A DNA stretch of 64,000 nt from Phytophthora colocasiae. Taxonomy: Eukaryota > Oomycota > Peronosporomycetes > Peronosporales > Peronosporaceae. A program made the translations under genes and the position numbers. The stretch is taken from contig JAGKQI010000105.1 of NCBI GenBank assembly GCA_018806915.1, forward strand, positions 868,001 to 932,000, written 5' to 3'. Shown piece by piece: positions 31,169 through 61,233 of the stretch (positions within the stretch are counted from its first letter, which is position 1; each line of letters begins with the position of its first letter). The notes below the pieces were generated by a model that saw only the letters and a list, made by a program, of their open reading frames with translations, did not search any database and was not told where the DNA came from.

Positions 31169-31173
31169 ATCTC
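31169..31173. repeat. Left TSD (ATCTC) of Copia B2
   Basis: ATCTC here and at 35759-35763. Intact B3 reads GAAATCTCGAGG at this site. Confidence 0.92.
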
Positions 31174-31455: not shown

Positions 31456-31472
31456 GGTTATGAGCCCAAGTA
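31456..31472 (+). other. Primer binding site of Copia B2 (internal tRNA-iMet type)
   Basis: GGTTATGAGCCCAAGTA directly abuts the LTR. GGTTATGAGCCC is complementary to the anticodon arm of initiator tRNA-Met (GGGCTCATAACC), the half-tRNA priming known from Drosophila copia. Confidence 0.8.
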
Positions 31473-31474
31473 CC

Positions 31475-35469: not shown

Positions 35470-35476
35470 GAGGGGC
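35466..35476 (+). other. Polypurine tract of Copia B2
   Basis: The purine-rich run TGAGAGGGGC sits directly before the 3' LTR and would prime plus-strand synthesis. The pol stop codon overlaps it. Confidence 0.75.
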
Positions 35477-35758
35477 TGTTGCAGGTGATCCAATACGATC
35501 CCACAATGATTACGGTAAGATGTTTACGCCACCGATGATTAGACGAGTAGGATGATTGGACGAGTACAGAATGTTGGTGATTAGATGCACCAAATGATTG
35601 GATGCAGACCAGGTAGAGAAAACAGTGTAAGCTCATATCAATCAATCACTTCTGAGTTTCCATTCTACCCCTCAAGTGACTTCCCTCGCCTCGGCCTCCT
35701 CGCCCCAAGCTTCGGCAGTCCTCCCCTCGCAAGACAACCTCTACCACGACCTTCTTCA
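35477..35758 (+). repeat. 3' LTR of Copia B2
   Basis: 282 bp, differing from 31174-31455 by eye only near positions 14 and 27 of the LTR. Confidence 0.93.
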
Positions 35759-35763
35759 ATCTC
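35759..35763. repeat. Right TSD (ATCTC) of Copia B2
   Basis: Matches 31169-31173. B1 resumes with GAGGTCTTCAAGG. Confidence 0.92.
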
Positions 35764-37960
35764 GAGGTCTTCAAGGATATCCGCAGCATCTTCGACATCT
35801 TCATCATCATCCACAATATTGGCGTCGTCGAAGGTTGATTCGTCGAAAGTGACATCGCGAGAAATCACTACCTGGCCCGCCTCGATGTCATAAACGCGAT
35901 ACGCCTTCGAACGCTCTTCATAGCCCATGAAAATTCCTTCACGAGCCTTGGGGTCCCACTTGAGTCGCTTCTCCTTCGGCGTCAGGACGTAGGCCTTGCA
36001 CCCGAAAACGCGCATGTGCTTCACGTTGGGCTTCCTCTTGTACACAATCTCAAACGGCGTCTTCCCTGGGACCTTGGGTGACGGCAGTCGATTCTTGATG
36101 TAAATTGCCGTCATCGCCGCTTCCGCCCAAAACGTCTTGTCCAAACGTGCGAAGTGAAGCATGCTGCGCCCGATAGTCACAATCGTCCGGTTGGCGCGTT
36201 CCGCAGTAGCATTCGTCTGATGCGCATATCGAACCGTCGGCTGGACTTCAATGCCATGATTGTCGTAAAAGGCCTTGAGCGAGTTGGTCGCGAACTCCTT
36301 GGCACCGTCATGACGCACGAACTTGACCCTGGCATCGAATTGGCGCTCCACTTTAGCGATGAACTTGCGCAGACAGTCTTCACTCTCCGACTTGGCGCGC
36401 AAACAGAATCCCGTCATGCAGCCGCTGGCTTCGTCAGTGATCAGCAGTAGATACTTGCTGCCACCAAGCGACTCTTTTCTCCATGGGGCCACAAAGGTCG
36501 AAGTGCAGGAACTCGAATGGCTTGTACTTGGGCTTGTCCGGGTTACTCGGAAAGGGTTTTGGACCATCTTCCCTTGCTGACACCCGCGGCATCCGCTTGA
36601 GTTCTTTGACGAGGTCGGCATTTTTGCGCCCGTCACCATGCCGCTCGAAACCATCTTCCGTAGCACGTCGTTCGGAGCATGACCCATCCGCGCATGAAGA
36701 TCGACACTGTTGATCGAGACCGTAGTCGTCGAATTGGCAGAACCGCTTTGGTACTCGTAGCCAGTAGAGTCCGTCGATCAGGTCTGCGGAAGCAACGATC
36801 TTCTTCGACGACTTGCGCGCAATGTGCATCTCGGAGCCGTCAAACACCACCTTGAAGTCTCCACTTCGGTTGATCTGAGGCACAGATAGCAGGTTCTTGT
36901 TCATACTCGGCACGTAGAGAGCATCTTCGATTCGGACGTCGCGCACACTCCGGTTGGGCAGAATCACTTGTTGCACAACGGTACCAACTCCTAAAATCTT
37001 GGCCGTTTGACCGTTGGCAACTGTGAGTTCGCCTTCGTCGCGCAAGTTGATGTCGATGAACTTGGACTTGTCGTTGCAAATGTGGTGGGTTGCACCACTG
37101 TCGATCGCCCATGAGCCTTGAAACTTCTTGCCCGACGACATTCCACACGCTGTCGACATGGAGACTGCAAACGCGATGTAGTCGTCATCGTCGTCGCACC
37201 ACTCAACGTTGCCGGCACCGCGACCACCTCGGCCGCGTCGTGCTCCTCGATTTTCTTCTTTCTGCTTGGTCCAGCACTTGTCGATAACGTGCCCCAATTT
37301 TCCGCAGTAGTCACACCGGCGAGTTTGACGCTCGGCGTTGAAGGCCTTCGCTGCTTCCTCGATTTTCACCGCCGCAGTCTTCTCGCCTTGTCGCTTGATA
37401 TGCTCATTCAGGAGCACCTTCACTACATCTTGCGTCCGCAGCTCTGCATTGCTCATCTCCATGTTGAGTACGACGTTCTCGTAGCTCTTGGGCAGACTGC
37501 GCAGCAAGCAGATCGCCACATCCTCGTCCTCCATCTTGGCGCCGATACTGCTAAGCTTCGCGCTGATGTTGAGGACTTCGTTGCAATGGTGAAGGATGTT
37601 TCCGCCTTCTGCCATCTCCATGCTGAAGAGCTGACGCTTGAGATATATGCGTCCAGCCTTCTGCGATCCACCGTAAAGGGTACGCAAGCGCGCCCACGCG
37701 ACCCAGGCTTCCTCGTAGTCGTCGACAACATGATGGTAGTCCGCGTCCATGTGGAGGAGCATCAGACCGAAGGCGACGTTGCTCGACTTGACATACTCGT
37801 CCTTGGCCCTGGAGTCCGTGAACGTAGGCGTCGTCTCGCGGTTCACCACATTCCACACCGACTTGGTCAGGAACACGCCACGCATGTAACGGTTCCACGT
37901 GGCGTAGTTCTCGCCGTTGAACTTGTCGATGGAGATCTTGGTATCTTGGACAGATGACAT
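35764..37960 (-). pseudogene. Copia B1 gag-pol, 5' half: Gag, protease, integrase
   Basis: ATG at 37960. The frame is open to 36434 through Gag (zinc knuckle [14 protein letters not shown]) and protease ([10 protein letters not shown]). An extra base near 36745 shifts the frame. The integrase zinc finger and core ([27 protein letters not shown]) lie in 36687-35665, rejoined by an extra T near 36477. It ends at the B2 insertion. The slippery heptamers are at 36550-36559. Confidence 0.87.
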
Positions 37961-37962
37961 GG

Positions 37963-37979
37963 TACTTGGGCTCATAACC
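37963..37979 (-). other. Primer binding site of Copia B1
   Basis: Minus strand GGTTATGAGCCCAAGTA abuts the LTR, as in B2. Confidence 0.8.
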
Positions 37980-38261
37980 TGAAGAAGGTCGTGGTAGAGG
38001 TTGTCTTGCGAGGGGAGGACTGCCGAAGCTTGGGGCGAGGAGGCCGAGGCGAGGGAAGTCACTTGAGGGGTAGAATGGAAATTCAGAAGTGATTGATTGA
38101 TATGAGCTTACACTGTTTTCTCTACCTGGTCTGCATCCAATCATTTGGTGCATCCAATCACCATCATTCTGTACCCGTCCAATCATCCTACTCGTCTAAT
38201 CATCGGTGGCGTAAACATCTTACCGTAATCATTGCGGGATCGTATTGGATCACCTGCAACA
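37980..38261 (-). repeat. Shared LTR: 3' LTR of B3 and 5' LTR of B1
   Basis: 282 bp. The B1 PBS and gag lie on the lower-coordinate side, and the B3 polypurine tract and RNase H end on the upper side. It is a single LTR between two internal regions. Confidence 0.92.
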
Positions 38262-38268
38262 GCCCCTC

Positions 38269-40887
38269 TCAATGCGAACACGCTTGAACGCCAAGAGCCG
38301 TCGTTAAGTCCTTGTGACGAGGTCCGCCGAGTCCCTTGGTCAAGATGTCGGCCAGCATGGTCGTGGTCTCGCAGTACTCGACGATCACTTCACCGCGCTT
38401 GACTTCATCACGGATGTGGTGGTACTTGATGTCGATGTGCTTCGCGCGGCCATGGTTCACAGGGTTCTTCGTCATCTTGATGCACGACTGATTGTCTTCG
38501 AAAATCTTCAGATCCGGGATGTCTTCGCCTGCAGCGTCAAGGATCTCACACAGAAGCTTGTGCACCCACTTGCCTTCTTGGATTGCCAGACTGAGCGCAA
38601 TGTACTCGGCTTCACTCGTGGAAAGAGACACACTCGATTGCTTCTTGGATCCCCACGACACAGGTCCGCCAAGAACTTGAAACAGGTAGCCTGAAGTCGA
38701 CTTGCGGTCACTGTGGTCACCAGCCCAGTCTGCATCCGAATAGCCACGAAAGTCGATTCCCTTGGTCGGCGAAAAACGGAGTCCATGCGACTTGGTGCCC
38801 TGAAGGTAACGGAAGATGCGCTTGACTGCAATCCAGTGCTCGACTTGAGGATTCTCCATGAAGCGCGAAACGTAACCAACTGCAAAAGCAATGTCCGGGC
38901 GAGTCGACGTCATCAAGTGCATGAGAGCACCGACAGCTTCGCGGAACGGCGCATCCAACTTGGTCGAGACGTCACTGGCAACGAGCTTCATGCTGAGGTC
39001 GACTGGACTGGCAGCAGGTTTGCAGTTCTGCATGCCAAAGCGCTCCAGGATGTCGTTGATGTAGCGAGCTTGACTCAATGTGACACTGCCATCCGCATTG
39101 TCGACCACCTCAATCCCCAGAATGAAGGAACATTTGCCGCTGTCGGTCATCTCGAATCGTGCCTTGAGCTGTTTCTTGACTTCAGCAATGATCGTCGAAG
39201 AGCTTCCGGTCACCAAAACATCGTCGACGTACACCAGCATCAGAACGCAGTCACCATCGACAATCTTGATGTAGAGGCACGGATCGTAGCTCGAAACGCG
39301 AAATCCGATGGAGCGCACATACTCGTCAAAAGTCTCATTCCACACTCGAGAAGCTTGCTTGAGACCGTAGATCGCCTTGAGCAGTTCCACGCAGTCGTAG
39401 CCGTCATCAAGTTCTACGCCTTCTGGAACACTGCAGAACACCTTCTCCTTCATCAAGCCGTACAGGAACGCCGTGACAACATCAAGTTGGTCGAGGGGCC
39501 AATTGAAGAACTTGGCCACAGCGATGATCATTCGCAGCGTGACGTACTTGACCACCGGCGAAAACGTCTCGGTGTAGTCGATGCCATACTTCTGCACAAA
39601 TCCTTTCGCGACGAGTCGAGCCTTGTACTTCTCGATGGACCCGTCGGCTTTACGCTTGATCTTGAACACCCACTTGGTTCCGACCGCGCGTTGGTTGTTC
39701 GGTAATTTGGCGCCACGAAACACTCCACGAAGTCGCATCGACTTGAGTTCTGCTCGGATCGCCTTCCGCCAGTGGACTTGGTCTTCGCCGCTCACAGCAT
39801 CTTGGAACGTCTTCGGCTCGGCGCTGTCACTCGTCTCTACTGCATTGGCACTCGCACGCCAGTACATCGGCTGAGTCGAGTCATCATCATCATTGTCTTC
39901 AGATTTGGCTTCTTGATGGTCGGAGTCCGGAGCGCTTGCTTCTTCTAGTCCAGCACTGCGACGCGGTCGACGAACATGTTCACGATCCTCGGCGTTAGAA
40001 CGAGCCTTGCGTTTCCCCGCCTGCTTGAATTCACGCGTTCCATGGTCGTTCGAAATCTCGAGGTCTTCAAGGATATCCGCAGCATCTTCGACATCTTCAT
40101 CATCATCCACAATATTGGCGTCGTCGAAGGTTGATTCGTCGAAAGTGACATCGCGAGAAATCACTACCTGGCCCGCCTCGATGTCATAAACGCGATACGC
40201 CTTCGAACGCTCTTCATAGCCCATGAAAATTCCTTCACGAGCCTTGGGGTCCCACTTGAGTCGCTTCTCCTTCGGCGTCAGGACGTAGGCCTTGCACCCG
40301 AAAACGCGCATGTGCTTCACGTTGGGCTTCCTCTTGTACACAATCTCAAACGGCGTCTTCCCTGGGACCTTGGGTGACGGCAGTCGATTCTTGATGTAAA
40401 TTGCCGTCATCGCCGCTTCCGCCCAAAACGTCTTGTCCAAACGTGCGAAGTGAAGCATGCTGCGCCCGATAGTCACAATCGTCCGGTTGGCGCGTTCCGC
40501 AGTAGCATTCGTCTGATGCGCATATCGAACCGTCGGCTGGACTTCAATGCCATGATTGTCGTAAAAGGCCTTGAGCGAGTTGGTCGCGAACTCCTTGGCA
40601 CCGTCATGACGCACGAACTTGACCCTGGCATCGAATTGGCGCTCCACTTTAGCGATGAACTTGCGCAGACAGTCTTCACTCTCCGACTTGGCGCGCAAAC
40701 AGAATCCCGTCATGCAGCCGCTGGCTTCGTCAGTGATCAGCAGTAGATACTTGCTGCCACCAAGCGACTCTTTCTCCATGGGGCCACAAAGGTCGAAGTG
40801 CAGGAACTCGAATGGCTTGTACTTGGGCTTGTCCGGGTTACTCGGAAAGGGTTTTGGACCATCTTCCCTTGCTGACACCCGCGGCAT
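38269..40887 (-). CDS. Copia B3 pol: integrase core, RT, RNase H (872 codons, intact)
   Basis: This is the cleanest Copia pol in the window. From ATG at 40887 the useful sequence begins at [16 protein letters not shown]. Integrase catalytic residues: [25 protein letters not shown] (residues about 33-135). The IN tail carries [20 protein letters not shown]. An acidic linker follows, then RT ([53 protein letters not shown]) and RNase H ([29 protein letters not shown]). The integrase zinc finger is in the upstream ORF, so this frame is probably reached by a -1 shift at 40845-40854 rather than by its own ATG. An internal start is the alternative. Confidence 0.85.
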
Positions 40888-42254
40888 CCGCTTGAGTTCT
40901 TTGACGAGGTCGGCATTTTTGCGCCCGTCACCATGCCGCTCGAAACCATCTTCCGTAGCACGTCGTTCGGAGCATGACCCATCCGCGCATGAAGATCGAC
41001 ACTGTTGATCGAGACCGTAGTCGTCGAATTGGCAGAACCCTTTGGTACTCGTAGCCAGTAGAGTCCGTCGATCAGGTCTGCGGAAGCAACGATCTTCTTC
41101 GACGACTTGCGCGCAATGTGCATCTCGGAGCCGTCAAACACCACCTTGAAGTCTCCACTTCGGTTGATCTGAGGCACAGATAGCAGGTTCTTGTTCATAC
41201 TCGGCACGTAGAGAGCATCTTCGATTCGGACGTCGCGCACACTCCGGTTGGGCAGAATCACTTGTTGCACAACGGTACCAACTCCTAAAATCTTGGCCGT
41301 TTGACCGTTGGCAACTGTGAGTTCGCCTTCGTCGCGCAAGTTGATGTCGATGAACTTGGACTTGTCGTTGCAAATGTGGTGGGTTGCACCACTGTCGATC
41401 GCCCATGAGCCTTGAAACTTCTTGCCCGACGACATTCCACACGCTGTCGACATGGAGACTGCAAACGCGATGTAGTCGTCATCGTCGTCGCACCACTCAA
41501 CGTTGCCGGCACCGCGACCACCTCGGCCGCGTCGTGCTCCTCGATTTTCTTCTTTCTGCTTGGTCCAGCACTTGTCGATAACGTGCCCCAATTTTCCGCA
41601 GTAGTCACACCGGCGAGTTTGACGCTCGGCGTTGAAGGCCTTCGCTGCTTCCTCGATTTTCACCGCCGCAGTCTTCTCGCCTTGTCGCTTGATATGCTCA
41701 TTCGGGAGCACCTTCACTACATCTTGCGTCCGCAGCTCTGCATTGCTCATCTCCATGTTGAGTACGACGTTCTCGTAGCTCTTGGGCAGACTGCGCAGCA
41801 AGCAGATCGCCACATCCTCGTCCTCCATCTTGGCGCCGATACTGCTAAGCTTCGCGCTGATGTTGAGGACTTCGTTGCAATGGTGAAGGATGTTTCCGCC
41901 TTCTGCCATCTCCATGCTGAAGAGCTGACGCTTGAGATATATGCGTCCAGCCTTCTGCGATCCACCGTAAAGGGTACGCAAGCGCGCCCACGCGACCCAG
42001 GCTTCCTCGTAGTCGTCGACAACATGATGGTAGTCCGCGTCCATGTGGAGGAGCATCAGACCGAAGGCGACGTTGCTCGACTTGACATACTCGTCCTTGG
42101 CCCTGGAGTCCGTGAACGTAGGCGTCGTCTCGCGGTTCACCACATTCCACACCGACTTGGTCAGGAACACGCCACGCATGTAACGGTTCCACGTGGCGTA
42201 GTTCTCGCCGTTGAACTTGTCGATGGAGATCTTGGTATCTTGGACAGATGACAT
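40737..42254 (-). CDS. Copia B3 Gag, protease and integrase zinc finger
   Basis: ATG at 42254 (MSSVQDTK). An in-frame ATG at 42269 lies inside the PBS, and the frame is open back into the LTR (GTG at 42356). Gag: [18 protein letters not shown], then the zinc knuckle [14 protein letters not shown] (CX2CX4HX4C). Protease: [37 protein letters not shown]-pre-integrase and zinc finger: [16 protein letters not shown]. After QNPF the frame leaves integrase homology and stops at 40737. The core continues in the -1 frame. Gag builds particles and the protease matures the polyprotein. Confidence 0.85.
40845..40854 (-). promoter_or_regulatory. Candidate -1 ribosomal slippage site in Copia B3 integrase
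   Basis: In the gag-side frame the codons are CAA AAC CCT TTC, giving two overlapping XXXYYYZ heptamers: A_AAC_CCT (40854-40848) and C_CCT_TTC (40851-40845). Slippage by -1 puts the ribosome exactly in the 872-codon pol frame. B1 and B2 have the same site. No strong downstream hairpin is obvious. An inherited 1-bp mutation is the main alternative. Confidence 0.45.
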
Positions 42255-42256
42255 GG

Positions 42257-42273
42257 TACTTGGGCTCATAACC
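42257..42273 (-). other. Primer binding site of Copia B3
   Basis: GGTTATGAGCCCAAGTA on the minus strand, adjoining the 5' LTR. Confidence 0.8.
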
Positions 42274-42555
42274 TGAAGAAGGTCGTGGTAGAGGTTGTCT
42301 TGCGAGGGGAGGACTGCCGAAGCTTGGGGCGAGGAGGCCGAGGCGAGGGAAGTCACTTGAGGGGTAGAATGGAAATTCAGAAGTGATTGATTGATATGAG
42401 CTTACACTGTTTTCTCTACCTGGTCTGCATCCAATCATTTGGTGCATCCAATCACCATCATTCTGTACTCGTCCAATCATCCTACTCGTCTAATCATCGG
42501 TGGCGTAAACATCTTACCGTAATCATTGCGGGATCGTATTGGATCACCTGCAACA
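42274..42555 (-). repeat. 5' LTR of Copia B3
   Basis: 282 bp. It differs from the shared LTR by about one base. Confidence 0.93.
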
Positions 42556-42560
42556 TTCAG
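42556..42560. repeat. Right TSD (TTCAG) of the Copia B cassette
   Basis: Matches 29082-29086. Array unit U7 resumes with CGCATACGCTG. Confidence 0.92.
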
Positions 42561-44168
42561 CGCATACGCTGCGGAGGATGTCCTCCAGGACGCGATTCGC
42601 GCGCTCAGTCTGACCATCGGTCTGCGGATGATCCGCCGTGGACATGTCCAGTCGAGTGCCAAGCACCTTAAAGACGGACGTCCAGAAGTGACCCGTGAAA
42701 CGGGGGTCTCGATCCGAGACAATGGTCTCTGGCAGCCCATGCTGGCGGAAGACCCGATCGATAAAGATCGTCGCTGTACCAGCGCCATCGACGGTGTCCG
42801 GCACAGCCGCTAGGTGAGCCATCTTGCTCAGACGGTCAACAAAGACCACAACGCCCGTGTTGCCTGCCGTATCCTTCGGCAGGCCAAACACAAAGTCCAT
42901 ACTTATGGATTGCCAACACCCAGAGGGTACAGGCAAGCTCGCCAAAGGCGCTGCCGCATGCGGCGAGGGTTTAACCCGCTGACACGTCTCGCACATGCGC
43001 ACGTATGTGCTAACCCACTTGTACATCTTCGGCCACCAGTACATGGAGCTCACCGAGCTGTAGGTCTTCTCGCGACCGAGCTGGCCGCTTGCGGGCGTGT
43101 CGTGGGCCTCATAGAGGATACGATACTTCAGGTCCTCAACGTGAGGAACCACACGTGATGGGTCATCCTGACCCGTGCTGTAGTACAGCAGACCGCCTTC
43201 CAGGCTGTAGCGTTGGAGTCTCGCCTTTAGGCGTCGTGACAGAGTCACCTTCGAGTCCTTAAACTCATCGCTCCCTAGAGCTTGAAGCAGCGCGACACAA
43301 GAGTCGTCCTGAGCGTACGCTGCTCGAACCATGTCCGTCACGGACGACGTCACCGAGGTGACATGAGATAACTCATAGTCCGGGCGACGTGATAAAGCGT
43401 CAGCGAGGACGTTCTGCCTGCCAGGCTTGTACTTCACCTCGAAGTTATACTCCGCAAAGAAGGAGAGCCATCGGGCCATCCTCTCTCGCGAGAGGTGAGG
43501 CGACTGCGTCGCTGTGCGTAGTGACGCATGATCCGTGTAGATCACAAACGGCTTGGAGCCGAGCAGGTGAACCCTGAATTTGACGAGAGCGTACTTCATC
43601 GCAAGTAGCTCCTTGTCATGAACTGGATAGTTCTTCTCAGCAGCCTTGAGCTGCCGAGACTCAAACGCAATGACGCGTTCGCGCCCGTCGGCGTCCGCTT
43701 GTAGCAAAGCACTGACGATGGCAAAGTCCGAGGCGTCACAGACGACGATGAACGGACGATCGGGGTCTGGCAACGCCAGTATCGGTGCCTGAAGCAGGCT
43801 ATCCTTGATACGAGTGAACGCACTCTCGTGCTCAGCACGCCATACCCATTCGGCATCCTTCTTAAGGAGATCCGACAGTGGCCGAGCCAACTCAGCGTAG
43901 TTCTCGCTGTACTTGTGCAAGTAGTTGGACAAGCCCAGCCACTTACGCAAGTCCTTCTGGTTCAAGGGAACCGGCCAGTCCACAATGGCCTTGACCTTTG
44001 CTGGATCAGCACGAAGGCCATGCTTCCCAATGAAGCACCCTAGGAAAGGGATTTCTTCCGCTCCAAAGACGCACTTGTCCGCGTTGGCGTACAACTTGTT
44101 CGTGCGCATGCACTCGAGCACAGCTCGCACGTGTTCCACGTGCACCTCGACGTCAGTCTTGCCGTGTT
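42561..44168 (-). pseudogene. Unit U7, right part: integrase, RNase H and RT 3' half
   Basis: Continuation of the last array unit. Motifs are the IN DDE, HHCC, RNase H (CDASDF, TDHAS) and RT after the active site (HGKTDVEVHVEH, IPFLGCFIGKHGL). A small insertion near 43485 changes HLSQRM to HLSRERM in frame. At 44168 the sequence switches to plus-strand protease sequence, so the apparent start of this frame further right (to 44532) is antisense and not real. Confidence 0.85.
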
Positions 44169-45860
44169 TGGGGGAAGAACTGAGTTCTGCAGTGCGTGAG
44201 AGGCACTGGGGCTCGCCCCGAAGAGCTCCGTGCTCTTGCACACGGAACGTGTGAGCAAGCAGGGCTTGCTGGTCGTCTAGGTGAACGTGAAGGGCTTTGA
44301 GAAGCCATGGATCGTGTTGATCAAATCCGGGGCGCGCTCCACCGTTGAAAGTAGTCAGCAATATGCTGAGGCGCTTCGAGCGCGAAAATAGTGACACCGT
44401 CACTGTCCGTCTAGCGACGGGCGTCCGTGTCACGGTAGCCAAGGTCCCCATGGACCTGCGGCTGAAGTTGTTAGACTTCGATAGCGTAGAACGCTGCTTT
44501 GTCCTGGACCTGGATTCGAGGTACGACCTCATCCTTTGTATATCGTGACTGGATCGCCACGAACCATGGATCGATTGGAGGTCGAAGACCTTAGATGCAA
44601 CGCACTTCTCTCATAGTGGAGCTTTAGCGAGTCATTAACCCACCTCTGCTAGGAAGCAAAAGCGCTTTTGGCGCGAGCATCGAGCCGAGTAGGCTATGAT
44701 ACTGGAAGTCGGTGTGTCCGAGTTAGTGGTCACCACCCAGTGCGAGGACCACAGTCCTGTTGAGCGCGTAGCGCTGGTTGACAGTGAGGCAACGTGTGGG
44801 CAGAGCCCACGTAATCCCTGTGGGGCGGCACGTACTCCGCCGAGCGTTGCTGGTCGTGGACCAAGTAGATCGCTGAATGTCTCTGACATTGGACCAGCTA
44901 CGGTCATTGGTTGTGCAGCGGCACGTACTCCGCTGAGCGACATCGGTCATCGACCGAGTGGATCGCTGAGTGTCTCTGACACTGGGCCGAGAGAGGCCGA
45001 AACTTGTGCGACGGCACGTACTCCGTCGAGTGGACGTTCGTCGGCTAGACGACGACGTCGTAAGGCCCTTTGGGCGAGACGCTCTGCGTCTGAGTCATCC
45101 GTGACGTCGAGTGCCAACGCACAGGAGGGCTGTGGGCAGCTATACACTCTGGTTGATGGAGTGGACGGCAGTGCCGAAGGCAGCGTCCTGCTGGACGAAC
45201 TGCCGAGTGTTGACAAGCTCCTTAGCTAGAGGAGATGTCGTTCGCCGACTTTGGCGATGCCTTGAAGGCTGGCGAACTCGCCGAGGTGGTCATCGTCCGA
45301 CCTGAAGAGGAGTTAAACTCATCGTCCCTCGTTGACGAGTCCGTCTTGGCCGAGGTCAAGAAGGCGTTGAACGCCAGGAGTGGATCGGAGATCCTCAAAA
45401 ATTCCTCGGATCCCTTCTACTCCTCGCTGAAGGAATATGGAGACGTTGTCTCGAAGGAACCACCGAGTGGACTGCCTCCTGACCGAGGCGTTCGTCACGA
45501 GATCGACTTAGTTCCCGGAACTAAATACTGCGTGACCCGGCAGTGGCAAGTGGCGTATCGTTCACGCTTTTAACAAGCTCAACGCTGCCACGATTCCGGC
45601 GCAGACGCCGATTCCTAGGAAGGATGTTCTTCAGAACAACATGGTGGGCTGCACCGTACAGTGCGCTCGACTTAGTCGATGGCTACTATCAGCTGCTCAT
45701 GGGAGCCAGTGATATTCCGCTTACAGCGGTATGCTCTGGGAGTGGATCGTCATGCCCAAGGGCTGTCGAATGCGCCTACAACGTTCAATCGTCTAGTGAC
45801 GCAGTTGTTCAGGCCCCTGCGGGCATTCGCACAGACGTACTTTGACGACGTGTTCGTCCA
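44169..45860 (+). pseudogene. Inverted segment of Gypsy A: protease, linker, pre-RT and RT 5' half
   Basis: It lies on the opposite strand to its neighbours. Order on the plus strand: end of the gag-pol junction, degenerate protease (44345-44548: DTVTVRLATGVRVTVAKV, LDLDSRYDLI; the DSGAS site is lost), the protease-RT linker in its original (non-recombinant) arrangement (44696-45229), pre-RT MSFADFGD (45235), RT up to YFDDVFV (45858). It carries the same deletions after VTRQW and SDIPLTAV as the array units, so those lesions predate amplification. Its ends match the missing piece between flanking gag and RT. Confidence 0.85.
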
Positions 45861-46543
45861 GACGGAATGTCTCCGTCCTGGCCACGCCATCTCGTAAGCC
45901 TTCCATGAAGACGGTCACGGCGACCACCTCAGGTAGAGGGTCGGCAGCCATGCCAGCAATGAGCGTGCGCAGCTCTTGGACATAGTCCACCAGATCCTTC
46001 TTGCCCTGGCGACAAGCAAGGAAGTGTGACCGCACGCGATACGCCTGGTTAGGCGGAGCGAACACTTGCGTGAGCTTGGCCTTTAGCTCGCCCCATGTGG
46101 GGAAGGCCGCTTCCACCGACGTCCCAGACGTCAAGGCCCATTCTCGTGCTCGTCCTTCGAGCTTAGAGATGGCAAACGCCACGCGTTGCTTCTCCAACTG
46201 GAGCATGGCGGCCCTCATGGCCATTTCGACCTCTCGGGTCCACAAAAGGAGGTTCTCTCCCTCATTCCCGTGGAAGGTCTTTACGCTAAGCATGACGGGG
46301 GTAACCCCATTTACATTTCGTTGGATGTGCTCAACCAGAGCGTTCTCGTACGAGGCAAATGCCTCCAGGCGCGCGTTGACGGCCTCTGGCCCTTGAGAGT
46401 CCCTGAAGGTTTGGCGCACCTTGCGTCTCAAGTTGAGACGCAAGGTGCGCCAAACCTTCAGGTCCTAGCAAGGACGTAAGATTGTTAAGCGTGTCCTGCT
46501 GACTCGGAGTTAAGTGAGCGTACGCTTCTGGCTCTATTCTCAC
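45861..46543 (-). pseudogene. Gypsy A Gag at the upstream end of the array
   Basis: The frames 46543-46331 and 46443-45793 read [74 protein letters not shown] and [13 protein letters not shown], the Gag core. The A1 start ATG is ATA here. A 30-bp inverted duplication at 46402-46462 breaks the frame. The Gag C-terminus and zinc knuckle are missing at the inversion breakpoint (45860). Confidence 0.82.
46402..46462. repeat. Perfect 61-bp palindrome in gag
   Basis: Two 30-bp arms (46402-46431 and 46433-46462) are exact reverse complements around a single G. A1 has only one copy of this segment (near 22150-22180, with small differences), so an inverted copy was added here. Confidence 0.92.
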
Positions 46544-53399: not shown

Positions 53400-53863
53400 T
53401 GTAATGGGTCTACCTAGACTATTAGATGGCGTACACGTGCGCTTACGTATATGAGGAAGCGTGCAATTAGAATAGAGTTAAGTTAAGTACATGTATACTT
53501 ATTTAAATAAGTATAATTAAATCAAATTTAACTAAATTAAACTGCAAAATACCGTAAAATGAGAACTGTTATTGAATTTGGCATAAGCCAATTATGGACC
53601 TCCTAAACTGTTTATTATCTATTTCTAAAGGGTCTGCCAACGTGTGGTTGGCAGAAACTCTGCTCAGTGATTGGTAGAAATCCGTTACTTTCTACCAATA
53701 ATATGCACAAATGCACACGAACCATCCAATAATGTGGTTCGCCCATGTATCCATTGGTGTGTACAGCACACCAAGGTCTGAGGCCCATTTCCAACCTCTA
53801 ACAGTTATCCTAACTGTTCGAGTTACAAGTGGTACAACCACTTGTACGTGTAACCCCGTTACA
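53400..53863 (-). repeat. 3' LTR of Gypsy C
   Basis: 464 bp. The plus strand runs from TGTAATGGG to CCCCGTTACA. Inverted repeats include TTGGTAGAAA / TTTCTACCAA (53671-53698) and ACAAGTGG / CCACTTGT (53825-53845). Confidence 0.94.
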
Positions 53864-53876
53864 CCATCCCTCCGTT
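53864..53876 (-). other. Polypurine tract of Gypsy C
   Basis: The minus strand reads AACGGAGGGATGG immediately before the 3' LTR. Confidence 0.75.
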
Positions 53877-53964
53877 AAGATTTGACGTATCGGTCTCGAT
53901 ACGTCAATCAACAGAACTTGACAAGACCGTCAAGTTCCCAAGAGAAATCCGAGTTCATTTCGCG

Positions 53965-54965
53965 ATGGACTCGCCAACGCCCACGTCTCTGTCCGCTTCT
54001 GCGGACGCGCAAGCCTCACCTGCTGCCTCTGCAGCAGGAACGACAACCTCAGCAGTGCCTACTAGCACTGCTGCTTCCAGCGGTTCGACAGAGAAGCTCT
54101 CTGTCACCAAGTACCATGCTCTCCACGAGGAGAAGCAAGCGAAGAAGACTTCTGCTTCGCTAGCAGGGATCAAACACCCTGCTGGCGTATCGGGAGCGCG
54201 TTGCTCCAGCTCGCGATCGCTACTACACTTACACCACTCGTGGTAAGTGTGAACGCCTCCATGATCTGTCCATGGAAGCGGGGATCGCATGTGCCGTTCC
54301 CTTTGGCACACTCTGCCCGTGTTGCCAACCCTTGGCAACACGCCTCTCTTAAAGTGATCTCCTGGGGTACACGGTTGTCCGTGTACCCGATCACATCAAA
54401 GAGCCGTGGTCGTATTGTGCCACGCGAAGCTCCGAGTGCTGTGGCTGACCGCAGCACTCCTCGTGCAGGGATTACCCCTGCAAGTTATGGTGGGCTTCGT
54501 ACGCCATCACCATTTCCGGAACGTCCTCCATCAGGACGTTCCGCGGCTCCCATGTATCTCGATGGGGAGGAAATCCTCTCCAACGAATACGAAAACGAAC
54601 CCCTTGAGAGTTCGTTCTCTTATGAGCCACGATCCGCTCAACAATCCAGCGGATCGCTCCACGCGCGTCGCGCAACGGCGGCGGAGGGGGCGGGAACACT
54701 CCCTCCGTATGGTCATCGCTATGACCATGACGACCGTGCTCTGCACGATCGAGTTGCTGCGCTGGAGCAGACACAGAGCGCTGAGATAGCGGCTCTGAAG
54801 CAGGAGGTTCGTGTCCTCCGTGCTGAGGTCTGTGAGGCAGCTCAGACTGCCTCGAACCTCTCGTCCGGTCTTGGGACGAGAGTGAGCCGGTTGATCGACC
54901 GTGTCGACGGTCTCGAGAAGGCCTTTCAGGCCTCTCGCACTACTCAGTCGGACTACCAACCCTAG
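53965..54965 (+). other. Antisense open frames in Gypsy C 3' region, coiled-coil-like
   Basis: The plus strand, opposite to gag-pol, is open in successive frames: ATG at 53965 (MDSPTPTSLSASADAQ, EKLSVTKYHALHEEKQ) to 54246, an overlapping frame near 54185-54352 (VAPARDRYYTYTTRGKCERLHD, FGTLCPCC), then 54352-54965 (EYENEPLESSFSYEPRS, RVAALEQTQSAEIAALKQEV). The last part has heptad-like Leu/Ala spacing typical of a coiled coil. GTAAGTGT at 54242 resembles a splice donor. It could be a degenerate antisense gene, a spliced gene, or chance openness opposite the chromodomain. Confidence 0.35.
54472..54939 (-). CDS. Gypsy C chromodomain, in frame with pol after a TAG
   Basis: The pol frame continues after the TAG at 54942-54940 with no other stop, through a linker (QSELPHRPQHGGHEP, PPPPPPLRDARG) to a chromodomain: IRWIVERIVAHKRTN, VRFRIRWRGFPPHRDTWEP, LMEDVPEM. 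The aromatic positions (W, W, W) of the methyl-lysine cage are present. It would guide integration to histone-marked chromatin. It is expressed only by readthrough, or lost in this copy. Confidence 0.75.
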   Translation of the reverse strand, partial: CERPERPSRDRRHGRSTGSLSSQDRTRGSRQSELPHRPQHGGHEPPASEPLSQRSVSAPAQQLDRAEHGRHGHSDDHTEGVFPPPPPPLRDARGAIRWIVERIVAHKRTNSQGVRFRIRWRGFPPHRDTWEPRNVLMEDVPEMVMAYEAHHNLQG

Positions 54966-57900
54966 GTAGTCCGTGCTGCACGTACGGCTTCAACCGCCCG
55001 ACGTAGAAGGTCGGTTGGAGCCTCATGCTGGACGGTATGTCCAGCCGGTACGCGTTGCCGTGCCGTTTAAGTACTTTGAACGACCCAATGAATCTTGGAG
55101 CAAGCAAGCTTGCTCCAAAGTCAGACACTGCATGTCTAGGTAGGTTTTGTGTAGCTAACAAAACTAATGAACCATTTTCGAATTCATTTGTGTTGCCTCT
55201 ACCAACAGTATCAGCGTTCAGCTTCTGTCGATCGACAGAAGCTGCGATAGCATCCTGGACAAACCGTATGACGGCTTGTCTTCGCTGGACAAAGTCTAGC
55301 GCACCCGAGCTGAATCCATTCAGCTTGTCGCCCTTGTCAGCAGCAGGCCCTGCCTGCTCGCTATCATCTCTCATGTCTGTGCCCGGCACAGACATCGCGC
55401 GCTCGTTCCTGCTCGAACGAGACGTCGCACGCGTCACCGCAGCTGATAGTGTGCTGCTATCAGTTGTATTCTGCGGTTGTTCGGACGCAACCGTAGATCC
55501 TCCCCCACTTAAGGAGGAAGCTACCCTGCCGAGCATGCTCGGCAATCGTGGATGCCTCATGGCGTTCACGTAGAACGGTGTATGCCCTGTCGAGGCATGC
55601 ACCGAGTTGTTGATGGCAAACTCTGCCATCGGCAAGCACTCGATCCAATGCGGGAACGAGTGAGCGTAGCTCTTCAACGTGTCACCCAGTACACGGTTGA
55701 CACGTTCGGTCTGTCCGTCCGTCTGCGGATGATCCGCAGTCGACATTGACAATTGTGAACCAAGAAGTGTAAACACTTCTTGCCAGAACCGCGCTGTGAA
55801 GCGTGGATCACGGTCCGACACAATGTCGAGCGGCATGCCATGGTGTTTGAACACCATGTCAACAAACAGTCGCGCAGTCTGCGCGGCTGTAACAGTAGCC
55901 GGGACGGCAGCAAGATGAACCATCTTGCTGAATCGGTCCACAAAGACAACGATGCCCGTCCTCCGCTTGCCGTCAGGCGGAAGACCGAAGACAAAGTCCA
56001 TGGACATGGACTGCCAACACTCCGACGGAGTCGGTAGTGATTGAAGAGGAGCCTGCGAGAACTGCGCAGGCTTCACGCGTTGACAAACCTCGCAAGCACG
56101 TACGTACTTGCGCACCCACTTGTACTGGTGGTGCCAGTAGAAGTCACGCGTGAGAAGAGTGTATGTCTTCTCACGACCCGGATGCCCTGCCGTGGGGGCA
56201 TCGTGATACTCGAACATGATCCTCAACCGGAGGTCATGATCATTCGGAACGACAATGCGATCCGCATTGTCGTCGACTGCACTGTACAACAGTAGGCCTT
56301 CGTGTACACGATAGCGGTGTACACGAGCTCGAAGATGAGGGGTTAGCTTCCGACGTGCCACGTCGGAAGGTGCTGCGAGGAACTCCAGCAGCCCCTTCGC
56401 GTCTGCATCCCTTGCATACGCGTTCTTCACGTCGTCAATCAACGTTGACGACGGCACACTTGTCTTCACGACGCCAACGCAGTTGGCGTCGACCGTCTCC
56501 GCATAGTCAGGTCGACGCGATAACGCGTCGGCCACTACGTTGAGTCTTCCGGGTTTGTACTCCACCCGGAAGTTGTACTCCGCGAAGAAGGACAACCATC
56601 TCGCCATACGTTGCGAGATGTGCGGCGACTTAATCGCCGTACGCAATGATGCGTGGTCTGTATAGACCACGAACGGTCTACTCCCAAGTAGATACACTCG
56701 GAACTTTGCGAGTGCATACTTCATGGCAAGGAGCTCCTTGTCATGTACGGGATAGTTACGCTCAGCTGGCTTCAGCTGACGCGATTGATAGTAGACTACA
56801 CGATCACGCCCTTCGTGATCGTGCTGCATCAATGCACATCCGATTACAAAGTCGGATGCATCGCACACTACGTGGAATGGACGATCTTGGTCCGCCACGG
56901 CCAAGATCGGCGCTTCAGTCAAGCCCTGCTTGACTGCACCGAATGCATCCTCGCACTCGGTCGTCCAAATCCACTCAGCTTCTTTCTTGAGAAGCTGTGA
57001 CAACGGGCGAATCTTGCCCGCATAGTTCTCCACGTACTTGCACAAGTACGTGGCAAGCCCAAGGAACTGCCTCAGTTCCTTCACATTGGATGGCGTGGGC
57101 CATTCATTGATCACTCTGACCTTCTCTGGGTCAGGGCGCACGCCGTCTTTCCCCACGAGACACCCCAGCACGGGTATCTCGCTCGCCCCGAAGATACACT
57201 TCTTCAGGTTCGCATAGAGCTTATGTTTCCTCATAAGCTCTAGCAGCTTCCGGAGATGCACCTTGTGCATCTCAATGTCCGTCTTCCCGTTCACAGCCCG
57301 GCTGTGGACGAACACGTCGTCGAAGTAGCTCGGTGCGAAGTCGCGCACCGAGCGCAATAGATGTGTCACGCATCTATTGAACGTCGCAGGGGCGTTCTTA
57401 AGTCCCTGTGGCATTACGAGCCACTCCCAAAGCATACCGCTTGGAGTGCTTACCGCTGTGAGAGGGATGTCCCTCTCACGCATGAGGATTTGGTAGAATC
57501 CATCACGCAGATCTAGAGCACTGAAGATAGTGCTCAAGGCCATCGAATCGATGATAACATCTTTTCGCGGTATCGGCGTCTGCGCCGGTATCGTCGCATC
57601 GTTCAGCTTGTTATACGCATGAACGATGCGCCAGCCGCTCTGTGGTTTCTTAACACAGAACGTTGGAGCACTGTGCGGGGACTTTGATTCCCGCACTTGA
57701 CCTGCAAGACGACGACTTTCAAAGAAGTCGTCGATCGCTTGCACTTGTTCACGCGGCAGTGGCCACTGCCGTGTAACACAGTACTTCGTGCCCGGCACGA
57801 GATCAATCTCGTGCTGTACGCCCTTATCCTTCGGAAGCTCCGAAGGAATCTCGTCCGGGAGTACATCCTTGTACTCCCGCAGAATCTCGTAATAGGGACT

Positions 57901-59775
57901 CGACTTCAACGAGTCCCAACTCTGCTCCTCGAAGCGTTGCTTCTTGGTCTTCGCACTGAGGGGGTCATCGCCCTCAGTGATGCCATCGACGACGAGCTGC
58001 TTCAGCTCTTCGGCTTCGCGCTCCACTCTCTCGATATCCGAGAGAATGCAAATTTGTTCGATGCGTCCATCGTACAAGTCTTGTGCGAAGCGCTTCCAAC
58101 TCATCGTTGGAAGTGCGGTCAACGCCGACGCACTCGTCGGCGGATTCTCCAACCGCATCCTCTGGTACTGTAACCCAGTACCAGTACGTGTCAAGACGTT
58201 CAACGTCTCGACACTCGGTGTCTGCACTGCAGATACACCCGTCTCAGTCCCGGACTGAGACTCGCGCAGCTCCCTGAGCTTGCGCCGCGAAGGTCTACCG
58301 TGGAGCCCGGCTCCAGGTGCTCCACGTCCAAGGCATCGCACCTTGGACGGGACGTTATCGCAATCGTCAGCGGATTCCTTCCGCTGACTCGCACTATCAA
58401 GCCCGGCTTGAGTGCCGCTCATCGCGTGCAGCGCTGCTGCACGTGAGCACGCAGGTTGTTCGGGTGCTGGGCGTTTGCAACCGCCAGCACCTCCTGCCGC
58501 GCAGTCGGTTCCCTGAACCGCTGCGCCTCCATCCGCTCCCGGAGCGGATGAAGCAACCGCATCGTCGACTCCCGGAGTCGACGTGCTCTCGCTAGCTTCC
58601 TGCGCTAGCGAGTGTTCGCTTGTACACATATCGTCAGCTCCCAGAGCTGACGCACGATCGCTAGTTCCCGGAACTAGCAGCGAACGTTCGCTTGTACACG
58701 CATCATCAGCTCTCGGAGCTGATGCACGATCGCTAGTTCCCAGAACTAGCAGCGACGCGCCAGTGGCGTCAGCTCCCAGAGCTGACGCACGCCTTTCGGT
58801 TCCCCGAATATTATTTGCTTCGTCAACTCCCAGAGTTGACGCGACGTCGTCGGCGCGACCCTTGGAGGCTTGAACTACCTCCAAGGATACCGGTAATACC
58901 GGTATTTTACCTTCTCTCAGGTGAATGCGATTCACCTGACCATCACTCATGTGACAAACATCATTCAGATGTTTATGCGTCAGGTGATTCACATTCACCT
59001 GACCATCACTCATGTGACAAACATCATTCAGATGTTTATGCGTCAGGTGATTCACATTCACCTGACCATCACTCATGTGACCGCGACCCTTCGGCTCAGA
59101 TTTCTGAGTCGACACACTTTTTCTCCCAACGACTCTCGGAGTCGTTGATGGTCGCCGGCGGCGATCGGAGTCAGCGGCGGCCGCTGCTGCCTCAACTGGG
59201 GATCCACATGCACCGGCCGGTGCATGTGCAGCACTGACAGGGCCATCGCTCTCTGTCGCGCATGTGTTGTTGAAGCGTACGAGCGTACGCTTCTCCCAGT
59301 TGATCACCGGGTCATGCCGTGCAAGCCACGGCATGCCTAATACCAAGTCGAACTTATCGTCTAGATCCAAGACGATAAGATCTTCTACAAACGTCCTTCG
59401 TTTGTAAGAGAAGCGCACACGGACTACGCGCTTCTCAGTCCTCACGGTGGCACCCGTTGCCAACCGCACCTCCAACACGCTGCGAGGCGTGTCGGCCTCT
59501 TCGAAGTCAAGTCTTCGAAGACTTCCCTGTCGAACAAAGTTGTTCGACGCGCCCGAGTCCACTAGGGCACGAAGAGAGTTTACTCTCTTCGACATCACGT
59601 TCAGGATGACAAGGTTTGGCTTGTCATCTTGCAGCTTACAGCGAGAAACCTTCTCGCTGGGGGCAGCAGTCCTCATCGTCGCGTGTCCAAGCTCGACACG
59701 CGAGACTGCATCACCAGTAGGACGCCCCGCGCCTACTGGTCCTTGGCGTTTTTTGAACGCCCGCCCGCTGTGCAC
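54940..59775 (-). CDS. Gypsy C pol: protease, RT, RNase H, integrase (1611 codons)
   Basis: The frame opens without ATG (GTG at 59775) and overlaps the end of gag in the -1 frame, so it is made as Gag-Pol by frameshifting at 59754-59748. Protease: ALVDSGASNNF (residues about 71-80), LVLGMPWLARHDP. A long repeat-rich linker follows (about 180-550). RT: SPHSAPTF, FSALDLRDGFYQ, YFDDVFVHS (about 816). RNase H: CDASDF (about 969), ELLAMKYAL, TDHASLR. Integrase: HHCC near 1188 (HDAPTAGH, CEVCQRV), DDE near 1255 (MDFVFGL), 1321 (SDRDPRF) and 1353 (GQTERVN), then the GPY/F-like tail PRFIGSFKVLKRHG. All catalytic residues are present. It stops at TAG 54942-54940. Confidence 0.93.
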   Translation of the reverse strand: MHSGRAFKKRQGPVGAGRPTGDAVSRVELGHATMRTAAPSEKVSRCKLQDDKPNLVILNVMSKRVNSLRALVDSGASNNFVRQGSLRRLDFEEADTPRSVLEVRLATGATVRTEKRVVRVRFSYKRRTFVEDLIVLDLDDKFDLVLGMPWLARHDPVINWEKRTLVRFNNTCATESDGPVSAAHAPAGACGSPVEAAAAAADSDRRRRPSTTPRVVGRKSVSTQKSEPKGRGHMSDGQVNVNHLTHKHLNDVCHMSDGQVNVNHLTHKHLNDVCHMSDGQVNRIHLREGKIPVLPVSLEVVQASKGRADDVASTLGVDEANNIRGTERRASALGADATGASLLVLGTSDRASAPRADDACTSERSLLVPGTSDRASALGADDMCTSEHSLAQEASESTSTPGVDDAVASSAPGADGGAAVQGTDCAAGGAGGCKRPAPEQPACSRAAALHAMSGTQAGLDSASQRKESADDCDNVPSKVRCLGRGAPGAGLHGRPSRRKLRELRESQSGTETGVSAVQTPSVETLNVLTRTGTGLQYQRMRLENPPTSASALTALPTMSWKRFAQDLYDGRIEQICILSDIERVEREAEELKQLVVDGITEGDDPLSAKTKKQRFEEQSWDSLKSSPYYEILREYKDVLPDEIPSELPKDKGVQHEIDLVPGTKYCVTRQWPLPREQVQAIDDFFESRRLAGQVRESKSPHSAPTFCVKKPQSGWRIVHAYNKLNDATIPAQTPIPRKDVIIDSMALSTIFSALDLRDGFYQILMRERDIPLTAVSTPSGMLWEWLVMPQGLKNAPATFNRCVTHLLRSVRDFAPSYFDDVFVHSRAVNGKTDIEMHKVHLRKLLELMRKHKLYANLKKCIFGASEIPVLGCLVGKDGVRPDPEKVRVINEWPTPSNVKELRQFLGLATYLCKYVENYAGKIRPLSQLLKKEAEWIWTTECEDAFGAVKQGLTEAPILAVADQDRPFHVVCDASDFVIGCALMQHDHEGRDRVVYYQSRQLKPAERNYPVHDKELLAMKYALAKFRVYLLGSRPFVVYTDHASLRTAIKSPHISQRMARWLSFFAEYNFRVEYKPGRLNVVADALSRRPDYAETVDANCVGVVKTSVPSSTLIDDVKNAYARDADAKGLLEFLAAPSDVARRKLTPHLRARVHRYRVHEGLLLYSAVDDNADRIVVPNDHDLRLRIMFEYHDAPTAGHPGREKTYTLLTRDFYWHHQYKWVRKYVRACEVCQRVKPAQFSQAPLQSLPTPSECWQSMSMDFVFGLPPDGKRRTGIVVFVDRFSKMVHLAAVPATVTAAQTARLFVDMVFKHHGMPLDIVSDRDPRFTARFWQEVFTLLGSQLSMSTADHPQTDGQTERVNRVLGDTLKSYAHSFPHWIECLPMAEFAINNSVHASTGHTPFYVNAMRHPRLPSMLGRVASSLSGGGSTVASEQPQNTTDSSTLSAAVTRATSRSSRNERAMSVPGTDMRDDSEQAGPAADKGDKLNGFSSGALDFVQRRQAVIRFVQDAIAASVDRQKLNADTVGRGNTNEFENGSLVLLATQNLPRHAVSDFGASLLAPRFIGSFKVLKRHGNAYRLDIPSSMRLQPTFYVGRLKPYVQHGLPRVGSPTE
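58590..58800 (-). repeat. Degenerate in-frame repeats in Gypsy C linker
   Basis: The minus-strand frame repeats a segment of the type TSDRASALGADDMCTSEHSL with variants (APRADDACTSERSL, ALGADATGASLL). Each copy contains perfect inverted repeats such as GTCAGCTC / GAGCTGAC. It is probably expanded by slippage. Confidence 0.7.
58925..59090 (-). repeat. 63-bp in-frame tandem repeat in Gypsy C linker
   Basis: CACCTGACC starts at 58933, 58996 and 59059, a 63-bp period with about 2.5 near-identical copies. On the minus strand each copy encodes 21 residues including HMSDGQVN and HLTHKHLNDVC. Confidence 0.88.
59713..59754 (-). promoter_or_regulatory. Gag-pol -1 frameshift cassette of Gypsy C
   Basis: Heptamer A_AAA_AAC (59754-59748) is in the gag frame (TCA AAA AAC GCC). 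A 7-nt spacer GCCAAGG follows, then a perfect 9-bp stem ACCAGTAGG / CCTACTGGT (arms 59732-59740 and 59713-59721) with a 10-nt loop. The gag TAG (59735-59733) is inside the 5' arm. A -1 shift gives KKRQGPVG, the start of the pol frame. This is the same heptamer class as retroviral gag-pro sites. Confidence 0.8.
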
Positions 59776-60724
59776 TCGCGTGCATAGTGACCGATGTTAC
59801 TGCACTTGTAACATCGAACCTTGCCGTATCTACGCTGCTGTTGACCAGCAGTCGTAGCACTCGAGAGGTCCATAGGTTCCGGACCTCCCGTCTTCACAAC
59901 AGGACGCGCCGGCTTCGGCGCGTTCGCATGGAGTTTAGCTTGACGCCGGCTAAACTCCTCTTGCATTGCAAGGCTGATCGCCTCCTCGAGAGTATTCGGA
60001 TACTCTCGGAAGAGATATGTTTTGACGGGACCATCTCTTAGTCCCTTCATGAACGTGACGACCTTGGTCGCCTCGTCGATCGGGTTGGCCACTATGTTCG
60101 ATACCAAGTATCGAGCACGCTGGGCAAAGGTGTGAACATCATCCTTGCCCTGCTGCAGATCGAGAAACTCTGCTCTCGATCTGAACTCGTTCTTCGGGGG
60201 CTCAAACGCAAGCTTGAGCTCCTCTTTGAACACCTCGTACGTACCGAAGCACGTAGGATCCGAGTGTCGGCGCCCATAGGCCCAACTCCTCGCACGTCCG
60301 CCAAGACATGACATGACATGGCGAACGCGACCTTCGACATCGGATCGACGATACGTCGAGCCGCAACGGCTGTGTCGAGTTTGACAAGCCACCGAAGGAG
60401 GGTCTCGTCCTCCTTCCCCGTGTAGGTACTCACGTGGAGTTTCAACGACTCCACGCGTGGCTTAGGGGAAGCCACCGAGGCAGCAACATCTCGTTGCTCC
60501 TTAACAATGTACCCCAGAGCAACACCGTGTTGCTCTGTCGGCGATAGCGTACGAAGCATCGTAGCTACCGCTGCCTCTCCAATGACTCGCGAGAGTCTTT
60601 GGAGAGCCTCCCACTCTGGATCAGACAGGTGGGCGCAGTCCGTGCGCGTCACGGACATTTGAGGGGTCCCAGCGGATCCCTCATCCATTGGGGAGTTCTC
60701 TACCCCGCGTTCGTATGACTCCAT
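59733..60724 (-). pseudogene. Gypsy C Gag, one 5-bp duplication from intact
   Basis: True ATG at 60724 (MESYERGVENSPMDEG). The N-terminal part is open to the ACATG triplication at 60306-60320, where an extra 5 bp shifts the frame. The rest continues in the 60392-59733 frame: GGRARSWAYGRRH, EVFKEELKLAFEPPKNEFRS, EFLDLQQGKDDVHTF, VVTFMKGLRDGPVKTYLF, and the zinc knuckle CYKCSNIGHYAREC (CX2CX4HX4C). It ends NAKDQ then TAG. As sequenced only a truncated protein would form. Confidence 0.88.
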
Positions 60725-60753
60725 ACGAACGAACAGCAGTCGGTCGTGGGACG

Positions 60754-60771
60754 GACTACAAAGTGCTACCA
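60754..60771 (-). other. Primer binding site of Gypsy C
   Basis: The minus strand reads TGGTAGCACTTTGTAGTC two nt after the 5' LTR. The first 11 nt are shared with A1. The tRNA is not identified. Confidence 0.65.
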
Positions 60772-60773
60772 GG

Positions 60774-61233
60774 TGTAATGGGTCTACCTAGACCTATTAG
60801 GTGACGTACACGTGCGCTTACGTATATGAGGAAGCGTGCAATTTGAATAGACTTAATTTAAGTATACTTATTTAAATAAGTATGATTAAATCAAATATAA
60901 CTAAATTAAACTGCAAAATACCGTAAAATGAGAACTGTTATTGAATTTGGCATAAGCCAATTATGGACCTCCTAAAACTGTTTGTTATCTATTTCTAAAG
61001 GGTCTGCCAACGTGTGGTTGGCAGAAACTCTGCTCAGTGATTGGTAGAAATCCGTTACTTTCTACCAATAATATGCACAAATGCACACGAACCATCCAAT
61101 AATGTGGCTCGCCCATGTATCCATTGGTGTGTACAGCACACCCAGGTCTGAGGCCCATTTCCAACCTCTAACAGTTATCCTAACTGTTAGAGTTACAAGT
61201 GGTACAACCACTTGTACGAGTAACCCCGTTACA
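60774..61233 (-). repeat. 5' LTR of Gypsy C
   Basis: 460 bp, matching 53400-53863 with a 6-bp loss (TACATG) and scattered substitutions. On the minus strand it starts TGTAACGGGGTTAC. Confidence 0.94.

Follow-up and report, generated by a model that had tools for sequence, protein, structure and literature searches.

Genome-scale ordered RNA structure is known from RNA viruses, and the genomes of RNA phages are dense in hairpins. In chloroplast DNA, minute inversions affect the loops of hairpins, mostly in non-coding plastid spacers. Mutations by template switching create and maintain hairpins, and loop inversion with an intact stem is among the patterns named by Monttinen and Loytynoja (2022, PMC8794818). 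Here we describe a Ty3/Gypsy long terminal repeat (LTR) retrotransposon with a chromodomain, which is saturated with short perfect hairpins. It occupies positions 53400..61233 on the minus strand of the analysed stretch of 64,000 nucleotides (hereafter the window) and is referred to as element C, or the window copy of family C.

Element C shares features with several described systems and departs from each of them. Like the Ty3/Gypsy chromodomain elements of Phytophthora, Peronospora and Globisporangium, it has LTRs, a gag with a zinc knuckle, the corresponding domain order and a chromodomain, and its reverse transcriptase (RT) is up to 92% identical to Phytophthora entries at the amino acid level. 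It is saturated with perfect hairpins, which would set it apart from these relatives, compared here by protein; in searches of viral and genome contig collections, no DNA of Pol relatives from other species was confirmed. As in the genomes of RNA viruses and phages, the structure spans coding and non-coding parts and is kept under protein constraint, but the stems of element C are perfect, apparently strand-symmetric, without G-U preference, and belong to a retrotransposon. Its loops flip between intact arms among close relatives, which resembles the chloroplast minute inversions, but here the sequences are the coding parts and LTRs of a nuclear retroelement. Further, in contrast to the ribosomal RNA genes of PMC8794818, which have few long perfect stems, in element C hairpins follow each other every 50-75 nt, and compensated arm pairs between copies are almost lacking. 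Our literature search, which covered titles and the beginnings of abstracts and had most subscription papers outside its coverage, revealed no report of a retrotransposon saturated with perfect hairpins.

Perfect hairpins along element C

The region 53400-61233 (7834 bases) was scanned for perfect inverted repeats with loops of 3-12 nt. This revealed 135 inverted repeats with arms of at least 7 bp, of which 103 have arms of at least 8 bp (referred to as hairpins, if not stated otherwise) and 76 arms of at least 9 bp. The arms mostly measure 8-11 bp, the commonest length is 9 bp (45 of the 103 hairpins), the longest is 12 bp, and the loops measure 3-10 nt in all but two cases (101/103). If stems were allowed to extend inward down to a loop of zero, the count was 109 stems, in 27 of which the loop measures 0-2 nt, and the longest arm was 13 bp. 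The hairpin centres are spaced by a median of 56 nt with a broad spread. Hairpins are present in every part of the element including both LTRs. Their density per kb is highest in the protease region (26.1) and in the linker between protease and RT (18.8), intermediate in the RT-RNase H part (13.2), the two LTRs (10.9 and 12.9) and the 3’ part (12.1), and lowest in the integrase (8.8) and in the leader with gag (8.7). Each 1-kb bin of the window that is located entirely outside element C contains zero to two arms of at least 8 bp, and a single one was found across the 18 kb from 28001 to 46000.

The original prediction, made from the window alone, that short inverted repeats saturate the element from LTR to LTR is therefore borne out, and more strongly than claimed. 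The four long hairpins whose coordinates we spot-checked are all perfect. The excess of long arms proposed for 56043-56670 is real, but this region contains seven instead of six arms of at least 9 bp, and several arms had been measured slightly too short: those at 56050/56065, 56300/56317 and 56430/56445 have 8, 10 and 9 bp, respectively, those at 56597/56613 and 56652/56664 have 8 bp each, and the hairpins at 53670-53699 and 54517-54543 both have arms of 11 bp.

Shuffled controls did not match the observed density. Ten dinucleotide shuffles of 7.8 kb, analysed with loops of 3-12 nt and a finder extending stems inward to loop 0, gave on average 0.8, 0.3 and 0.1 arms of exactly 8, 9 and 10 bp, while 21, 37 and 16 were observed. 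Similarly, 30 synonymous-codon shuffles of the 4.8-kb pol open reading frame (ORF) gave a mean of 1.5 arms of at least 8 bp (maximum 4) versus 70 observed, and a mean of 0.6 arms of at least 9 bp (maximum 2) versus 54 observed. Thus, codon choice is insufficient as a cause, in agreement with what had been proposed. The 70 pol hairpins show no preference for a codon phase (22/23/25). The folding energy, calculated in 120-nt windows of the window copy, has a mean z-score of -3.5 in the sense and -4.3 in the antisense orientation; in the sense orientation it lies below that of shuffled controls along the length of the two C copies analysed (mean z -3.5 and -3.7).

Comparison with other copies and related families

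Further copies were searched in the genome, which comprises 92.5 Mb in 105 contigs, and the repeats are present in these copies as well. Across 3.6 kb of 19 other C copies, variants present in at least two copies were found at 3 of 716 arm sites, 95 of 2708 spacer sites and 17 of 204 loop sites (Fisher test, 4e-7 for arms versus spacers and 0.002 for loops versus spacers). Singletons were distributed similarly over arms (47/716), loops (19/204) and spacers (219/2708; arms versus spacers, p 0.18). By codon position 1, 2 and 3, the shared spacer variants amount to 19/796, 15/795 and 52/791, and this skew validates the logic of relying on shared variants. At third codon positions alone, shared variants were detected at 1 of 224 arm sites versus 52 of 791 spacer sites (Fisher 3e-5). 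For the whole element, compared over 25 loci and the window copy, there were 13 shared minor alleles for 1770 arm sites, 196 for 5106 spacer sites and 45 for 504 loop sites (Fisher 2e-13 for the arms and 1e-6 for the loops). None of 5000 shifts of the hairpin mask reached so low a value for arms or so high a value for loops, and after removal of the six hairpins with inverting loops described below, loops still show 30 shared alleles at 483 sites. Since shared variants are rare in arms while singletons are far less skewed, mutations that break stems seem to be seldom passed to new copies. At the protein level, the arm codons of C have an identity of 0.53-0.54 to the related families D, A and E, which is below the 0.67-0.69 of the spacer codons (p 0.002 against D, 0.001 against A). 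The hairpins may lower protein identity, or they may be located where changes of the protein are tolerated.

When copies were oriented by their flanks, the loops of 56 of the 103 hairpins were polymorphic, and six hairpins showed a loop and its reverse complement between intact arms. The clearest alleles, AAGGG and CCCTT at 56799..56823, differ at all five loop positions. A pattern admitting all 32 mixtures of these two loops has 185 matches distributed over many contigs, and among the 100 matches listed there were 90 with AAGGG, nine with CCCTT and one with AAGTG. Inverted alleles were also found at 55095..55118 (CAAG/CTTG), 58917..58939 (CGC/GCG) and 54318..54342 (GGG/CCC), and the hairpin at 56469..56491 has two reverse-complement pairs (GCT/AGC and GCA/TGC), while the pair GGC/GCC at 56347..56369 possibly reflects one substitution. 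Among the 17 pairs of loop alleles with at least three differences, five are exact reverse complements and three more are one base off. In a tree of the copies built without the loop sites, four hairpins change orientation, with 3, 4, 3 and 1 switches, respectively, numbers which recombination between copies could inflate. One hairpin of family D has the loop alleles TTGA and TCAA, a difference of two bases. Loop inversion with an intact stem is a known product of template switching (PMC8794818), and the inversions show that strands switch at the hairpins of element C.

The 13 shared arm changes in C comprise six leading to G-U, five leading to A-C and two Watson-Crick exchanges, with no others. 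In line with this, stems of 9 bp with a single mismatch contain G-U in 20 and A-C in 30 cases (p 0.2). As G-U seems to be tolerated no more readily than A-C, pairing probably matters in both strands or in the DNA itself. Further, antisense windows fold as well as or better than sense windows relative to their own shuffles (p 4e-5 and 4e-4 in C, 0.07 and 0.05 in D), an advantage which is partly due to a weaker antisense null. From these sequence comparisons and small numbers, the constraint in C looks like a strand-symmetric one on Watson-Crick pairing.

A motif search of the genome gave 792 RT motifs, 100 of which were among the matches listed, and 20 stretches of 8.6-10 kb were taken around RT motifs of differing signature. 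The five stretches centred on C contain 57-111 hairpins each, two D stretches 28 and 34, six stretches of A or E 6-15 (the 15 includes a partial D copy) and six of other families 2-5; one additional stretch (L036) has 22 hairpins owing to a partial C copy inside it. Three additional 8-kb copies of D have 29, 32 and 33 hairpins. Expressed as density, this corresponds to approximately 13 per kb in the window copy of C, 3-4 in D, 1 in A/E and 0.2-0.5 in unrelated elements. It had been supposed that family A is enriched for shorter arms only, which is approximately right; hairpins are indeed few in A/E, but 3-4 per 10 kb have arms of at least 10 bp. The folding z-scores rank the families in the same order: from sense to antisense they are -3.5 to -4.3 in C, -3.0 to -3.6 in D and -1.3 to -2.0 in A/E, and four unrelated stretches have -0.1 to -0.8. 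The identity in pol amounts to 63-64% between C and each of D, A and E, to 67-68% between D and A or E, and to 96-97% between A and E. Within one genome, the families are graded from A/E over D to C.

In an aligned pol piece, the centres of three of 20 D hairpins (arms of at least 7 bp) coincide exactly with those of C hairpins, and a compensatory pair is present in each of the three. In the hairpin at 55908..55930, with arms of 10 bp, the outer pair is C-G in C but G-C in D. In that at 57253..57273, an A-T pair of C corresponds to G-C in D, and in that at 55995..56012, with arms of 7 bp in the integrase region, a C-G pair of C corresponds to G-C in D; this last hairpin is likewise perfect in A and E. 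A D hairpin (L043:3901) and the C hairpin at 57795-57814 lie in the same pol region and have the inner letters of the arms and the loop in common (TTGA or TCAA in D); they probably represent a fourth shared hairpin. Between C copies, a compensated arm pair was found once (L021) and in none of the other 24 mapped C-bearing loci, which include 19 short copies. A few paired arm changes come in addition from the linker repeats, where they may be due to an exchange of entire units.

Selection, template switching and other explanations

Constrained arms together with free loops are the pattern expected from purifying selection on pairing. Between copies, the stems remain intact while the loops mutate and are sometimes flipped, which suggests that self-folding is important for the element. 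The explanation which we prefer, and to which on the basis of the sequences we give slightly less than an even chance, is that both strands are selected for pairing with themselves and that the loops are flipped by template switching; relief from silencing may be the benefit. Stems would arise by point substitution, to which short template switches in the course of DNA synthesis, in the simplest case reverse transcription, perhaps contribute. Copies with broken stems would leave fewer offspring, and purifying selection would keep the stems. Pairing would matter in both complementary strands, namely in the sense RNA and in the complementary DNA (cDNA) or an antisense RNA, or in the DNA itself. 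With less confidence, self-folding may prevent annealing between the strands and with small RNAs, and thereby bring relief from RNA silencing. Such a shield against silencing or sense-antisense annealing is our first guess for the benefit because, according to PMC3522703, two abundant LTR (Gypsy) elements of P. infestans are matched along their length by small RNAs in both orientations. As another guess, the cDNA could be protected or compacted. It is rather doubtful, but conceivable, that the palindromes constitute an element-wide, strand-symmetric code, which makes both strands foldable every 50-75 nt, is selected at least as strongly as the amino acids, and favours self-folding over annealing between strands and to small RNAs, while template switching flips the loops.

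Several observations weigh against selection on self-pairing of both strands. The pairing of C stems is not significantly above re-dealt controls in D (110/229 pairs versus 100.9 +- 5.2), A (89/230 versus 91.3 +- 5.5) or E (88/230 versus 94.5 +- 5.5). Conversely, D stems have 77 of 148 pairs in C versus 71.0 +- 4.0 after re-dealing, and at 67 each in A and E versus 73.7 and 73.5, respectively. The median distance from a D centre to the nearest C centre is 13 columns versus 23 in the null (95% 11.9-38.0), which is not significant. With neither excess pairing nor significant proximity of centres, most hairpins are not common to the families. Over the whole element, singletons too are somewhat rarer in arms (165/1770 versus 626/5106 in spacers, p 7e-4). 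This deficit stems at least partly from the fact that the hairpins were defined in the window copy, by which arm variation is lowered by construction, by about half in comparisons with the window copy and by an estimated small amount for variants shared among other copies. The five D copies show shared variants in the same order (arms 2/973, spacers 40/5652, loops 8/406), with a non-significant arm contrast (p 0.08), and D singletons are likewise depleted in arms (p 0.001). Finally, the three mismatch-making arm variants of C that are present in at least four copies are all G-U, and the single-mismatch stems of D lean towards G-U (6:4 and 7:2, few cases), both of which point to the sense RNA.

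Selection on the sense RNA alone, that is, a genome-scale ordered structure serving packaging, stability or protection of the transcript, would account for these G-U variants and also for the strong sense folding (z -3.5 in C and -3.0 to -3.3 in D). At one hand, the genome-wide RNA folding put forward in the original prediction is in agreement with the conserved arms, the free loops and the compensatory pairs between C and D. At the other hand, G-U is not favoured over A-C in C, neither among the shared nor among the fixed mismatches, and the antisense z-scores are as low as or lower than the sense ones, with the reservation about the antisense null given above. We therefore regard selection on the sense RNA alone as unlikely. 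Somewhat less unlikely, but still improbable in our view, is a mutational drive without benefit for the element, in which RT or the host repair switches templates at quasi-palindromes frequently enough to make stems and to keep them perfect. It would explain the loop inversions with intact arms, a known product of template switching (PMC8794818), the strand-symmetric, Watson-Crick-only stems of C, and, as expected of blindly made stems, the lack of a codon-phase preference and the lower protein identity of arm codons. The templated repair at the DNA level, which had also been suggested, is supported by these inversions as far as strand switching is concerned. However, unbiased correction predicts compensated pairs at approximately the neutral rate (an estimated 15-34), and they are almost absent among C copies. 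Further, the hairpin gains traceable between copies are single substitutions; the underlying allele lists are noisy due to loose flank matches, and only alleles resembling the hairpin were used. Neither did the C arms show an asymmetry of donor and recipient in their identity to A, D and E, a comparison with low power at this divergence.

Selection could also act on double-stranded or replicating DNA, for example through cruciform-forming palindromes affecting chromatin or repair. The strand symmetry in C and the 27 of 109 stems that reach loops of 0-2 nt, including a perfect palindrome of 26 bp, would be in line with this. However, most stems have loops of 3-10 nt, and short stems with such loops form cruciforms poorly, which makes this explanation quite improbable. 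Chance, composition, codon bias, tandem repeats or an assembly artefact we consider negligible and reject. Degenerate repeats in the linker at approximately 58500-59070 do repeat some hairpins, but hairpins occur in every part of the element, both types of shuffles fail to produce them, and families of similar composition are without them. Since one hairpin alone has 185 matches over many contigs, they are no artefact of assembly. A mobile palindrome, i.e. the spread of one hairpin sequence, was likewise rejected, since the sequences of the stems vary outside the LTR pair and the linker repeats.

If the stems are indeed selected, self-structure of single strands is a trait which mobile elements can push to saturation. 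The series from A/E over D to C makes it testable, with existing sequence and small-RNA data, whether the structure of nucleic acids shields mobile elements against silencing or results as a side effect of template switching.

Architecture of the element and its surroundings

The element contains an LTR pair, gag, the order protease, RT, RNase H and integrase, and a chromodomain downstream of the integrase, all on the minus strand, which assigns it to the Ty3/Gypsy elements with a chromodomain. The 5’ LTR (60774..61233, five hairpins) and the 3’ LTR (53400..53863, six hairpins) are 95.7% identical. The gag region (59733..60724) consists of two overlapping frames, of which that at 59733-60392 contains Retrotrans_gag and a zinc knuckle according to Pfam, while that at 60092-60724 had no Pfam match. 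The pol ORF (54940..59775, 1611 amino acids) encodes protease, RT, RNase H and integrase and has 70 hairpins wholly within it. The chromodomain (54472..54774; PF00385, E 1.2e-12) is located in an ORF of its own, apart from pol. With its split gag and separate chromodomain frame, the window copy looks broken.

The 120 best relatives of the RT region include several Phytophthora species, mostly with 85-92% amino acid identity, one P. ramorum entry with 72%, and entries of Globisporangium splendens and Peronospora effusa. We infer that the host is a Phytophthora-like oomycete.

In the linker between protease and RT (58500-59070), the units of degenerate repeats carry hairpins, and some copies differ in entire units or in paired changes of the arms. 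The perfect 26-bp palindrome in pol is located at 55219-55244. An AT-rich palindrome is present in both LTRs (53494-53515 and 60862-60883), that of the 3’ LTR being perfect over 22 nt; as a guess, it could belong to the promoter region. Outside element C, a perfect inverted repeat with arms of 29 nt and a 3-nt loop at 46402-46462 is the longest of the window. At 1-15800, five near-identical family A units follow each other at distances of about 3.1 kb. Their 300-nt reference segments at 313, 3414, 6506, 9601 and 12697 are 100% identical, and the five units look like a recent tandem array.

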